From Thermococcus peptonophilus (GTDB lineage Archaea > Methanobacteriota_B > Thermococci > Thermococcales > Thermococcaceae): a stretch of DNA of 64,000 nucleotides. The position numbers were made by a program, and so were the translations under genes. The stretch is from contig NZ_CP014750.1 in NCBI RefSeq assembly GCF_001592435.1, positions 868,001 through 932,000 on the forward strand. The letters are read 5' to 3'. Below, in pieces: positions 10,092 to 43,424 of this stretch (the first letter of the stretch is position 1; each line of letters opens with the position of its first letter). Below the pieces are notes generated by a model. The model was not told the origin of the DNA, did no database searches, and saw only the letters and a program-made list of their open reading frames with translations.

Positions 10092-10676
10092 TCAATCGGA
10101 CGGAGCTTCCTCTTCTTTTTCTTCACCTCTGCCCTCAAGTTTGGCCATCAGGTCGCTGTATTCGGCATTGACGACCTTCTTGAAGGCCTCCTTTATTAGG
10201 ACTGGGTCGTTCTCAGGGAATCCGTAGAGTTCGGCGAACTTCTTCGTCGTTCCCAGGAGCTTTGTCCTCTCGTATGGTTCGGCGTAAATCAGGCCCATTT
10301 CAACGAGCCGTTTTATGTGTTCGTAGGCCTGACTGCCGCGTAGTTTTACTATCTTGCTCTGCTCGACCGGCTGGAGATAAGCAATCAGCGCCAGGGTCTT
10401 TAACTCTCCCGTTCTCAGGTCTGGCTTCGGCATGAGGTGGATGACCCTCTGGCTGTACTCCTGCTTGACCTGCATCACGTACTTGTCCTCGAGCACTCTA
10501 ACGACCTCTATCGCGCTCTTTCTCTCGGCATACTCGGCCGCTATAAGCTCTATCAGCTTTTCCAGGTATTCCAGTGATTTTATTCCCAGTGCCTTTGAAA
10601 GCTCCTTCAGGCTCAATGGCCTCCCGGCCACAAAAAGAGCCGCCTCCACGAGGGCCTTGTCTTCAAGCAGTCCCAT
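10092..10676 (-). CDS. scpB: Segregation and condensation protein ScpB
   Basis: The 194-residue protein consists of two winged-helix domains (about residues 1-75 and 85-165) with the ScpB hallmark LRTGELKTLALIAYLQPVEQ. An acidic tail (GEEKEEEAPSD) follows. ScpB is the kite subunit that bridges SMC and the kleisin ScpA in chromosome condensation. Neither smc nor scpA is in this window next to it. The ATG at 10676 follows GGTGGTAGC. It is divergent from the 5S rRNA gene, about 60 bases away. Confidence 0.93.
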   Translation of the reverse strand: MGLLEDKALVEAALFVAGRPLSLKELSKALGIKSLEYLEKLIELIAAEYAERKSAIEVVRVLEDKYVMQVKQEYSQRVIHLMPKPDLRTGELKTLALIAYLQPVEQSKIVKLRGSQAYEHIKRLVEMGLIYAEPYERTKLLGTTKKFAELYGFPENDPVLIKEAFKKVVNAEYSDLMAKLEGRGEEKEEEAPSD

Positions 10677-10948: not shown

Positions 10949-11295
10949 GACCTTCTCACATTCTTAAGCAAGCTTTTGGAAAAGCTTGGCCAAGGAAACT
11001 TTGCTTGCAAGGTTTCATCAAAGTTGGTGGTTCTTGTTTGTAAATGGTTTTGAAAGGGATTTTTCATTAAGGGCTCTTGTTTAAGTGTGAATTCAATTTC
11101 AGTGAGAGCTTTCGGGGTGAGTTTGCTTTGTAATCGACGCCCGTAGGGCGTCAAAGGGAGAGAAACTCTTGTTCACTGAGCAATAGTTGGGAATTCACTA
11201 ATTTTTAGCACGTACGCAAGAAAATCCTCAGAAAACAGCAATTTTGGAAAAGAACCACGAACCTTGATCAAACTCAATGGGACTGTCGTCCCGTG

Positions 11296-11316
11296 CGTTG
11301 AAGCGGAGCTTCAACG
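11296..11316. repeat. Hairpin unique to repeat copy 1
   Basis: CGTTGAAGC-GGA-GCTTCAACG forms a perfect 9-bp stem with a 3-base loop. It lies in a roughly 40-base stretch (about 11275-11316, also holding GGGAC-TGTC-GTCCC) that is absent from copy 2 at the equivalent place (about 42192). Confidence 0.75.
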
Positions 11317-11324
11317 TCGCGCAG

Positions 11325-11345
11325 GAAGCTTTTGGGAAAAGCTTC
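11325..11345. repeat. GAAGCTTTT-GGG-AAAAGCTTC hairpin
   Basis: A perfect 9-bp stem with loop GGG. The equivalent in copy 2 (about 42202-42220) keeps the loop and stem, with one position changed to a G-T wobble. A near-identical hairpin with loop GG occurs at 10969-10988 just left of copy 1. Confidence 0.75.
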
Positions 11346-11467
11346 ACCAAAAGGTTTCCCTTTCCTTTTGAACTTGCCTGTTGATGAGCGTATGCTCACT
11401 CAAAAAGCAACTTTGCGCGGGTTTAATCTTGAAGTTCCCCCACTAATTGTGATTTTGACTGTCTTTT

Positions 11468-11486
11468 TAGTGCCCTTTGGGCACTA
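11468..11486. repeat. Covarying hairpin, copy 1
   Basis: TAGTGCCC-TTT-GGGCACTA is a perfect 8-bp stem with a 3-base loop. Relative to copy 2 (42343-42361) two stem pairs differ, and both changes are compensated on the other strand of the stem (T-A to C-G and C-G to T-A). Confidence 0.85.
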
Positions 11487-11605
11487 TACGGTGATAAAAT
11501 CCAGTAAGTTTGGCAAATTGATGAGAGAAACCCCTCATAAAATTAGCCTCTATTTAAAAAAGCATACCAACTTTCCGCCAGCGCTTTCGTAAGAAAGGGC
11601 TGCTG

Positions 11606-11746
11606 TGGTGGGGGCGCGGGGATTTGAACCCCGGTCCGCGGGTTTCTCCGGGTCAGAGCTCCAAAGGCTCATCCCCCAATCAGCAAACCCGCAAGTCCTC
11701 ATACCTCTGGAGCCCGCGATGATGGACCAGGCTACACCACGCCCCC
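11606..11746 (-). tRNA. tRNA-Trp (CCA) with intron
   Basis: The mature parts form a cloverleaf with acceptor arms GGGGGCG and CGCCCCC, T arm GGGTTCAAATCCC and an encoded CCA. Anticodon CCA follows CTC in the loop. An intron of about 63 bases (11644-11706) follows position 37, the standard archaeal place cut by the bulge-helix-bulge endonuclease. A TATA-like CTTATAAAC on the minus strand near 11775-11783 is about 30 bases upstream. Exon 1 is 11707-11746 and exon 2 about 11606-11643. Confidence 0.94.
11644..11706 (-). ncRNA. Box C/D 2'-O-methylation guide within the tRNA-Trp intron
   Basis: Read on the minus strand, the intron has box C-like ATGAGGA, box D' CTGA, box C'-like GGGATGA and box D CTGA. 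The 5th base upstream of box D pairs with C34 of the same tRNA (guide TTTGGAGC against the anticodon region GCTCCAGA). The 5th base upstream of box D' pairs with position 39 (guide GCGGGTTT against AAACCCGC). This reproduces the arrangement known in euryarchaeal pre-tRNA-Trp, which guides methylation at 34 and 39. Intron ends are inferred to within one or two bases. Confidence 0.88.
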
Positions 11747-41331: not shown

Positions 41332-41859
41332 TCAATATTCAACACCGCGTCTCGCCAGTATCCCTCTCTGGTACGGATGCTTGACTTCCCTCATTTCAGT
41401 CACGTAGTCGGCCAGCTCGAAAAGCTCCTCCGGGCAGTATCTTCCCGTGAGAACGAGTTCCGTGTTTTCAGCTTTGCCCTTTATCAGTTCCTTAACTTCC
41501 CCAACATCGAGCATTCCAAAGCCGAGGGAGACGCAGACCTCATCGAGGATAACGAGGTCCCACTCACCGCTTGAAGCCAGTTCTTTCGCTCTTTCAAGTG
41601 CCCTCTTTGCCGCTTTTATGTCCTCCTCACTTGGTTTTCCATGGACAAAGCCCGGCAGACCAAAGGACTCAATGAGGGCACCACATTCCTCTATCTTCTT
41701 CTGCTCTCCGTAGACCTTGGGAGCTTTCATGAACTGTACTATGGCAACCTTTCCGCCAGAACCAAGCATCCTCACGGCGAGTCCAAACGCAGCCGTGGTC
41801 TTTCCCTTTCCGTTGCCAGTGTATATGTGAACCAAACCAAGTCTGTCCTTCCAGCTCAT
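41332..41859 (-). CDS. cobO: Cob(I)yrinic acid a,c-diamide adenosyltransferase
   Basis: The 175-residue P-loop protein has YTGNGKGKTTAAFGLA at residues 12-27 and VILDEVCVSLGFGML in the middle, as in the CobA/CobO/BtuR family. It transfers adenosyl from ATP to cob(I)alamin-type corrinoids. The ATG at 41859 follows GGTGAAAACA. It is upstream-adjacent to structured repeat copy 2, and the TATA-like CATATAAAAG on the minus strand near 41891-41900 is its likely promoter. Confidence 0.92.
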   Translation of the reverse strand: MSWKDRLGLVHIYTGNGKGKTTAAFGLAVRMLGSGGKVAIVQFMKAPKVYGEQKKIEECGALIESFGLPGFVHGKPSEEDIKAAKRALERAKELASSGEWDLVILDEVCVSLGFGMLDVGEVKELIKGKAENTELVLTGRYCPEELFELADYVTEMREVKHPYQRGILARRGVEY

Positions 41860-41900
41860 TGTTTTCACCATCGGACATAATCTCCAGCCCTTTTATATGT

Positions 41901-42475
41901 TTGCCAAGAAACTTTGCCCGACAAAGTTTCATCAAAGTTTGTAGCTCCTTCTTCCCAAGAATGTTTTATTCAAGATTTTGGACTGCAAGTGCTCATTTTT
42001 GAGTGAGAACATGCTTGGAAAGACTTCTCAAAAAGTGTTTTCTTTCCTTTGACGCCCAAAGGGAATCGATTTAGGGCTAAACACGCGTTAAACTGGTGAG
42101 TTTGAGAGTTCTCACATTCAAGAACAGCTGTTTGGTGGGAAAAGCACGACGAATTAGGATTCTAAAAAAGAGCTACGAACCCTGATCAAACTTCGCGCAG
42201 GAGGCTTTTGGGAAAAGCTTGACCAAAAGTGCGCCCTTCTTCTCGAACTTTCCTTATTGATGAGTGTATGCTCTACCAGAAAGCAAGTTCACGCGGGTTT
42301 ACTCCCAAAATCTCTCGTTAATAATGATTTCAAACTTTCTTTTAGCGCTCTTCGAGCGCTATACTGTGAGAAAATCCTGTAAATCTAGCAACTCGATAGT
42401 AAACCCTCTCAAAAGCTAGCTCATTAAAAACACATACCAACTTTCCACCAGCGCTTTCGCAAGAAAGGACTGTTA
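41901..42475. repeat. Structured non-coding repeat, copy 2 (next to tRNA-Ala)
   Basis: This 575-base region without a gene aligns colinearly with 10986-11605. Shared landmarks in order are GCCAAG(G)AAACTTTG, GTTTCATCAAAGTT, CGAACC-TGATCAAACT, CGCGCAGGA, TTTTGGGAAAAGCTT, TTGATGAG-GTATGCTC, CGCGGGTTTA, AGCGCT-N5-AGCGCT and CATACCAACTTTCC. Its right end abuts the CCA of tRNA-Ala, exactly as copy 1 abuts tRNA-Trp. The reading frame that is open in copy 1 contains many stops here, so the element is not protein-coding. Confidence 0.85.
42343..42361. repeat. Covarying hairpin, copy 2
   Basis: TAGCGCTC-TTC-GAGCGCTA is a perfect 8-bp stem, equivalent to 11468-11486. Both differing stem positions are compensated, so pairing is kept in each copy. 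Confidence 0.85.
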
Positions 42476-42553
42476 TGGTGGACCGGGCGGGATTTGAACC
42501 CGCGGCCTCCGCCTTGCGAGGGCGGCGCTCATACCAGGCTGAGCTACCGGCCC
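42476..42553 (-). tRNA. tRNA-Ala (CGC)
   Basis: A 78-base cloverleaf on the minus strand: acceptor arms GGGCCGG and CCGGTCC (one G-T pair), anticodon loop CTCGCAA (anticodon CGC), T arm GGGTTCAAATCCC and encoded CCA. No intron. Its 3' end abuts repeat copy 2. A TTTTTAAAG on the minus strand near 42584-42592 is a candidate TATA box. Confidence 0.95.
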
Positions 42554-42719: not shown

Positions 42720-42862
42720 ATGAATCCCCTTGAATTCCACAGGGACAACTTCCCCGGAAATGGGAAGATAGAGGTCATACCGAAGGTTTCAGTTACCAGA
42801 GAAACCCTGACCCTTGCTTACACTCCGGGCGTAGCCGAACCTTCGAAGGCAATAGCCAACGG
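42720..42862 (+). pseudogene. Malic enzyme, 5' fragment only
   Basis: The ATG at 42720, with GGTGATG upstream, opens MNPLEFHRDNFPGNGKIEVI, then LTLAYTPGVAEPSKAIA, the N terminus of the archaeal NAD(P)-malic enzyme. Homology stops after about 47 codons, where a full gene would need about 430. Beyond about 42862 the plus strand is the antisense of fumarase alpha. The frame happens to stay open to 43427, so a 236-residue chimera with a meaningless C terminus could be translated. The catalytic and NAD-binding regions are lost. Cause: a deletion with one end inside this gene. Confidence 0.85.
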
Positions 42863-43424
42863 CGCCGATCCCGAGAATTACGGGCGGGCAGGGCTTTCCG
42901 CCGCACTCCTTCACCCGCTCGAGGACGAAGCGCTTAACGCCCTCCCACCCTTCAGCTGGAGTCAGCATCGCCAAGGCGGAGCAGTTCTCGCTCCTGCCGC
43001 CCTTCGGGAGAACGGCTGTCTCAAGGTCGTCCCCACCAACCAGCTCCCAGTGGATCACGGGTACGCCCTTCCCCGTGTTGTCGCCCGAGTTTTTGCTGGT
43101 AAGAACGTCAACGGCGTTGGGCCTCAGCGGAATCCCAAAGGTTGCCCTCCTCGTTGCCTCTATGATCGCCCCCTCAATCTCGCCCAGGTAAGGGCTTTCA
43201 ACGCCCGCCTTCACAAAAAAGGTCAGCGTCCCCGTGTCCTGGCAGACAGGAACTTTCCTGGATTTTCCAATCTCGATTGCCTTCAAAGTGTTGCAGAGGT
43301 TGAACCTCGCTATTTCACTCTGCTCGCTCTCGTAGGCTCGCCTGAGGGCTTCAACAGTGTCCGCGGGAATTGTCGTGACCGCGAGTTTGATGGCATCAAC
43401 GATAGGGTCAACGAGGTCTTTCAA
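42863..43424 (-). pseudogene. fumA: Class I fumarate hydratase alpha subunit, 3'-truncated
   Basis: Read from a TTG at 43424 (after GGTGAG), about 187 codons match the alpha subunit of two-part class I fumarase: KVPVCQDTGTLTFFVKAG with its cluster Cys, SGDNTGKGVPVIHWE, and PCPPVILGIG. At that point homology ends at the junction near 42862. The frame runs only to 42789, through antisense malic enzyme. About the last 90 residues are missing, as is any beta-subunit gene nearby. The [4Fe-4S] enzyme cannot be complete, so the gene is probably inactive. Confidence 0.85.

Follow-up and report, generated by a model that had tools for sequence, protein, structure and literature searches.

Non-coding, hairpin-bounded palindromic DNA cassettes anchored at tRNA 3′ ends across the genus Thermococcus are probably mobile or recombining

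The window analysed here, a 64,000-nucleotide stretch of the Thermococcus peptonophilus chromosome (NZ_CP014750.1, positions 868,001 to 932,000; genome G000), holds two arrays of non-coding units that lie against the 3′ ends of tRNA genes. In nearly all Thermococcus species, about half of the tRNA genes carry rows of such units directly behind the last base. The comparative data make it moderately probable that the units are DNA cassettes, palindromic and bounded by hairpins, which occur genus-wide with tRNA 3′ ends as their anchors and are mobile or recombining.

The earlier note on this DNA had described a single 0.6-kb non-coding element occurring twice in the window. Both copies were recovered, the first at 10986-11605 as claimed and the second at about 41913-42475, and they were found to abut tRNA-Trp(CCA) and tRNA-Ala(CGC), respectively, each flush at the tRNA 3′ end. 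The two copies are indeed related, and the B half of copy 2 matched copy 1 in BLAST with E=2.4e-47, but each copy proved to consist of a B unit followed by an A unit, both from a family with three types, rather than of one element. As had also been noted, neither copy encodes a conserved protein; no open reading frame is common to the copies, and a protein-coding origin was therefore dropped. The length excess of copy 1 over copy 2 is mainly due to an extra double hairpin of ~45 bp (11273-11317).

The anchor of array 1, tRNA-Trp(CCA) (11606-11746, minus strand), contains a 63-nt intron; the gene was found by ARAGORN in intron mode and missed in default mode. The tRNA-proximal B unit (11338-11605, minus strand; nhmmer E=1.2e-64, hmm 3-263) is conserved in 12 copies within this genome. 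Its first hairpin, CAGCGCTTTC-GTAA-GAAAGGGCTG (11579-11602), stands 3 nt from the tRNA CCA, and other copies have it at the same position with compensatory changes in the stem. The central triloop hairpin of this unit, TAGTGCCC-TTT-GGGCACTA (11468-11486), was delimited from the sequence and from covariation across copies. The B/A junction is formed by the hairpin GAAGCTTTT-GGG-AAAAGCTTC (11325-11345), a kind of hairpin that also bounds units at other loci and serves as an exchange point. The distal A unit (10995-11274, minus strand; nhmmer E=5.1e-44) has the central triloop hairpin GACGCCC-GTA-GGGCGTC (11136-11152) and the distal end hairpin GAAACTTTGC..GCAAGGTTTC (10995-11016). The double-hairpin insert, which is absent from copy 2, sits in the start hairpin of the A unit. 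BLAST revealed 27 distinct copies of it at other fetched loci, all at one A-unit site, with conserved stems and variable triloops, and few stretches are better conserved between species. Another type of double-hairpin insert (GGGAAGCGAAGCTTCCC...GTTGAGGCTTTGCCTCAAC) was seen within the first hairpin of B units at loci L144 and L138. Between array 1 and tRNA-Asp lies an extra hairpin, CAAGCTTTTGGAAAAGCTTG (10969-10988), and the ScpB gene of the SMC complex (10092-10676; Pfam E=1.5e-37) is located upstream of this 5S rRNA/tRNA-Asp/array region.

Array 2 has the same order. Behind tRNA-Ala(CGC) (42476-42553, minus strand; ARAGORN and Rfam RF00005) follow a B unit (42214-42475, minus strand; nhmmer E=2.2e-61) and a distal A unit (41913-42201, minus strand; nhmmer E=3.2e-42). 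The first hairpin of the B unit (42449-42472) has the loop GCAA, and its central hairpin, TAGCGCTC-TTC-GAGCGCTA (42343-42361), is compensated relative to the Trp copy. The A unit has its far end at the promoter side of a cobA gene (Pfam CobA_CobO_BtuR, 41332-41871). Near tRNA-Ala, at 42720-42905, an N-terminal malic-enzyme-like piece (MNPLEFHRDNFPGNGKIEVIPKVSVTRETLTLAYTPGVAEPSKAI...) stops after some 54 residues, where it meets the end of a fumarase gene on the opposite strand, possibly a scar of rearrangement; this short piece had no Pfam match.

Three related unit types were distinguished, all non-coding: A (~290 bp), B (~260 bp) and C (~250 bp), the last recognised behind further tRNAs, beyond the A and B units of the window. 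Each unit is a large imperfect palindrome with a central triloop hairpin, hairpins at both ends and intervening arms that pair, in the A unit CATCAAAGTT..TTCTT with AAGAACC..TTGATC. Read in the direction of the tRNA, a unit opens with a strong start hairpin 0-5 nt past CCA; its central triloop hairpin lies near +145 in A and near +115 in B and C, and an end hairpin near +220 to +290 closes it. Column shuffling of the consensus folds gave z-scores of about -9 for B and -14 for A, on either strand.

With copy 1 as the query, a BLAST search of the whole 1.9-Mb genome returned 33 matches, which fall at about 19 places. Profile HMMs built for each of the three types from tRNA-proximal units recognised 41 units, grouped into 19 arrays. 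An array has 1-5 units (tRNA-Met, for example, is followed by C-A-B-C-B), and all but one of the 41 units run head to tail along the tRNA strand. All 19 arrays begin 0-5 nt past a CCA, which in one case belongs to an att copy of a tRNA. Such placement cannot be chance, because the few bases behind each of the 46 CCA ends make up ~0.01% of the genome. The array at genome positions 258,674-259,511, the only one without an adjoining tRNA, is preceded by 47 bp that duplicate the 3′ part of tRNA-Val(TAC) perfectly; this copy was left by an integrated element whose integrase matches Phage_integr_3. The array most likely once stood behind tRNA-Val and was displaced by the integration. The integrated element with its att copy was located at L032:5626-5680 and L032:4214-5704 (genome 257,213-258,680). 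One further, diverged unit without a tRNA lies near 1,406,520-1,406,895 of the genome, beside a ribosomal-protein operon.

Family matches were obtained in 59 of the 61 genomes of the genus Thermococcus and, among neighbouring genera of the family, in 3/3 genomes of g2, 5/13 of g4, 5/7 of g5 and 1/1 of g6. Genus g3, which is presumably Pyrococcus, gave BLAST matches in none of nine genomes. At 17 tRNA ends of one g3 genome (G065), neither a start hairpin nor a clear unit was seen; the A model gave a single weak match (E=0.004), which was set aside. Genome G022 likewise has no units. Twenty other genomes supplied a sample of 60 loci, of which 54 faced a tRNA 3′ end; in 53 of these the orientation relative to the tRNA was the same. 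The distinct units numbered 227: 190 share the strand of the tRNA beside them, 17 lie on the opposite strand, and 20 have no tRNA in the fetched locus. These results bear out the enrichment at tRNA genes and the presence in more than one genome on which the earlier note had made its tRNA association depend, and its view that the use of different tRNAs excludes one att site was judged to be right.

The preference for tRNA targets is strong, not absolute. Of the six sampled loci that do not face a tRNA, five represent a single orthologous site; there the unit lies directly against a small GC-rich RNA-like gene, and a tRNA is thus not the sole anchor. Such a gene (GGGACCCCCAGGGGGGCGACA...CCCCCC, H/ACA-like) precedes units at L125, L126, L140, L144, L146 and L230, and in L126 and L230 a search of Rfam at E<=1 found nothing for it. 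A scan of 84,980 species for a B-like pattern gave hits in Thermococcaceae only, at 20 places, 13 of them behind CCA; the other seven comprised one small RNA-like gene, one aminoacyl-tRNA-synthetase-like stop codon and, for the most part, protein-gene starts. At L235, L238, L244 and L246, the first hairpin of B (CAGCCCTTGCTTGCGCAAGCGCTGGCGG) was observed directly before the ribosome-binding sites of protein genes, facing the start codon; this B-like hairpin is possibly a 5′-UTR hairpin of related sequence. Arrays are absent where a tRNA leads straight into an operon, and operons directly behind a tRNA being left free is what would be expected if insertions there were harmful.

A hairpin starting at most 14 nt from CCA was present at 76 of 162 tRNA ends, compared with 1 after shuffling; many compensated stem variants were seen, and a T-run near +45 often comes next. 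The central hairpins, of which 82 distinct ones were compared, have each of their seven pairs in Watson-Crick form in 74-80 cases versus 25-61 in shuffled controls, and as many as four kinds of pair occur at a position. The Watson-Crick excess is partly built in, since only hairpins with 6 or more of the 7 pairs had been selected. Exceptionally stable DNA loop motifs (GNA, GNNA) were dropped as a general rule, as the central triloops are too variable.

Adjacent units of the same type were found in 6 of 89 pairs, whereas 32 (sd 4.4) were expected. The nearest relative lay in the same genome behind another tRNA for 61 of 190 units (background 7%) and behind the same tRNA of another genome for 13 of 190 (background 4.5%). 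Within one genome, units behind different tRNAs share stretches that are 97-99% identical. Nearly all tRNA ends of three close species (G014, G016 and G026) were then compared, with gain and loss at a single locus being separable only by means of an outgroup. Of 91 locus comparisons, 24 break within 60 nt of CCA, many of them exactly there, and 2 break further out; 17 are collinear, and in 35 only the tRNA is common. In the 24, sequence identity of 81-98% persists through the distal array and flank, and a few of these proximal breaks, e.g. Ser-CGA and Thr-CGT, lack a recognised unit. Reading of the junctions located the changes at CCA and at inter-unit hairpins. At tRNA-Val(GAC), G026 has an extra A unit between the tRNA and the B unit compared with G016, and the arriving or departing A unit replaces the 5′ half of B's first hairpin. 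Such changes bear on the three origins that the earlier note had offered (a structured RNA, a tRNA-trailer element or a decayed mobile element targeting tRNA 3′ ends): the third came closest, but the units are not just decayed, as turnover at the tRNA end is recent enough to distinguish species that share 81-98% identity in the flanks. In several species (L068, L078, L079, L084 and L085), tRNA-Trp is inverted relative to the small protein gene beside it, which is the result that local flips at tRNA genes would give.

Alternatively, the units could be a functional DNA element of the host at tRNA genes, with the fold under selection and with gene conversion homogenising and swapping the units; insulation of strong transcription, a stall or loading site for replication or SMC, and bidirectional termination are suggested roles. 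The near-universal presence in the genus, the orientation fixed towards the tRNA, the absence where a tRNA runs straight into an operon, and the compensatory changes that keep the folds of the central stem and first hairpin are all consistent with this idea. On the last point, however, repair templated by the opposite arm of a hairpin can also keep palindromes perfect and yield complementary stems without selection. A host role also sits poorly with the roughly half of tRNAs that have no unit at all, with the family genus in which nine of nine genomes lack a match, with the tRNA-Val(TAC) of G000 that is separated from its array, and with the fast turnover of orthologous loci. We consider a host element unlikely, although it is the best of the alternatives.

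A second alternative is that the arrays are a passive by-product, in which old palindromes persist behind tRNA genes, are reshuffled as these genes recombine with one another by ordinary homologous or integrase-mediated routes, and spread through hairpin template switching. Chromosome inversions between tRNA genes have been described in Thermococcus, where the plasmid integrase Int of pTN3 acts inside the tRNA and can catalyse such events (PMC5495485). They involve the same lineage, the same tRNA places and the same class of breakpoint as the arrays; the part of that paper considered here describes the integrase and makes no mention of palindromic arrays behind tRNAs. Homologous recombination between tRNA 3′ halves, together with shared hairpins, could give the same breakpoints without dedicated mobility, the 35 comparisons with the tRNA alone conserved are as such breakpoints predict, and turnover was seen in genomes that lack a Y1 transposase or an SSV-type integrase. 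Simple tRNA-tRNA exchange does not, however, give the 24 comparisons in which the far flank is collinear and only the proximal part has changed. Nor does it account for units that begin at CCA behind very different tRNAs, and it leaves the scarcity of same-type neighbours unexplained. This alternative appears slightly less probable than a host element.

A mover was also sought. A blastn search of 72,556 plasmid and 50,697 phage records returned no relative, and a plasmid or virus source was rejected on this ground. No target-site duplication was seen by eye at array ends or at the filled/empty site of tRNA-Val(GAC), and no copy of a tRNA, as expected of integrated elements of the SSV/pT26-2 type, was noted at the far ends of arrays, the sole case being the unrelated insertion that splits tRNA-Val from its array. 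The Y1 transposase (PF01797) was detected in 25 of 94 genomes and in none of G000, G002, G014, G015, G016 and G026, and an SSV-type integrase was absent from G002, G014 and G015. Both were rejected as resident movers, being absent from several genomes with fresh turnover. Neither the plasmid and phage collections nor the Y1 and SSV-type integrase searches yielded an autonomous copy or an enzyme for the cassettes. The mover thus need not be a resident enzyme of either kind, and host machinery or another transposase is a likely candidate. The same results weigh on a third alternative, namely a MITE-like family moved in trans by a transposase, of the IS200/IS605 Y1 type or another, or the remnants of tRNA-integrating elements. 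The inverted-repeat arms, the non-coding units of 250-300 bp, the interspersed copies and the near-identical paralogues would suit it, but with no duplicated target, no coding relative, no match in the plasmid and phage collections, and the Y1 transposase and SSV-type integrase missing from the genomes just listed, we regard it as improbable.

The strands were compared with respect to an RNA product. A preference for G.U is expected if one strand acts as RNA. G.T and A.C mismatches numbered 23 and 22 in central hairpins and 14 and 9 in first hairpins (37 versus 31 in total), and these near-equal counts favour pairing at the DNA level. RNAalifold scores were alike for both strands. Rfam matches in the window were limited to 5S rRNA and tRNAs, and a known RNA family was therefore dropped. 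The structured-RNA option of the earlier note is accordingly not favoured, given that paired positions decay symmetrically on both strands and RNAalifold scores are alike. A structured RNA gene, or a 3′ trailer in which the tRNA transcript enters the first hairpin and T-run, could draw on the CCA-proximal hairpins with their T-runs and on GNRA on the antisense strand in B-unit loops, but it is very improbable in view of the balanced mismatches, the equally good fold of both strands, the lack of an Rfam match, the many tRNAs without a hairpin, and the primary transcriptome paper of T. kodakarensis, which in the part considered here mentions no such RNA (PMC4247193). Judged from these pairing patterns, the units appear to fit DNA palindromes better than an RNA gene.

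Under the preferred reading of mobile or recombining cassettes, the process would recognise the unit hairpins as cruciforms or as folded single-stranded DNA, and whole cassettes would be placed or exchanged at the tRNA end. Arrays would grow and be replaced mainly at that end, with the distal units being older, and the palindromes would matter as the DNA substrate of recombination or transposition rather than as an RNA product. A bolder version, which we put forward only tentatively and hold to be the less likely case, is a dedicated Thermococcus system that inserts or exchanges hairpin-bounded cassettes exactly at tRNA 3′ ends, with polarised arrays of alternating types and recognition of DNA shape plus tRNA end; it would be a novel class of site-specific cassette system and may underlie the unusual rearrangements at tRNA genes.

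Several known systems resemble these cassettes in part. In Neurospora mitochondria, GC-rich palindromes flank tRNA genes, and fungal mitochondria have double-hairpin elements; like the cassettes, these are short, non-coding, located beside tRNA genes and spread within the genome, and the nested 45-bp part of the Thermococcus cassettes is likewise a double hairpin. However, the mitochondrial palindromes are tens of bases long and form no ordered multi-type arrays, whereas the Thermococcus units measure 250-290 bp, nearly all follow the tRNA strand, and they start at CCA. MITEs and REP/BIME elements are also non-coding inverted-repeat units with many copies and without genes of their own, and the cassettes have the MITE trait of being short and non-coding with terminal inverted repeats. 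They differ in that neither a target duplication nor a partner transposase was found, in that a single target, the tRNA 3′ end, is preferred, and in that turnover takes place at this end of an array; the resident Y1 (RAYT) tyrosine transposase that goes with REP/BIME elements is missing from G000 and from the five other genomes listed above. Yeast Ty3 and Dictyostelium TRE3 are tRNA-targeted retroelements, for which the tRNA gene similarly defines the insertion site, but they encode proteins of their own and their insertions lie upstream or some way off, whereas the cassettes join at CCA and encode nothing. By analogy, integron cassette arrays and CRISPR arrays also consist of ordered units beside a fixed anchor, on whose side change occurs, and integron attC sites likewise place hairpins at the points of cassette exchange; the Thermococcus arrays, in contrast, have no integrase or Cas gene and no cargo genes or spacers. 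No description of the cassette family was found in the openly licensed literature searched, and an older account in subscription papers is possible. An interspersed palindromic repeat is a known kind of element; the anchoring at tRNAs, the order of the arrays and the turnover at their end look new.

The genome paper of T. gammatolerans describes Thermococcus genomes as rearranging fast although they have few insertion sequences and repeats (PMC2718504). The cassette family is a large class of repeat at tRNA genes, the places where Thermococcus chromosomes rearrange. If the cassettes are mobile, they would imply a new hairpin recombination chemistry beside tRNA ends, with an enzyme to be found; if they are selected, the tRNA genes of these archaea would be equipped with a structural DNA element. 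In both cases, it becomes possible to test why the rearrangement hot spots of Thermococcus are tRNA genes.
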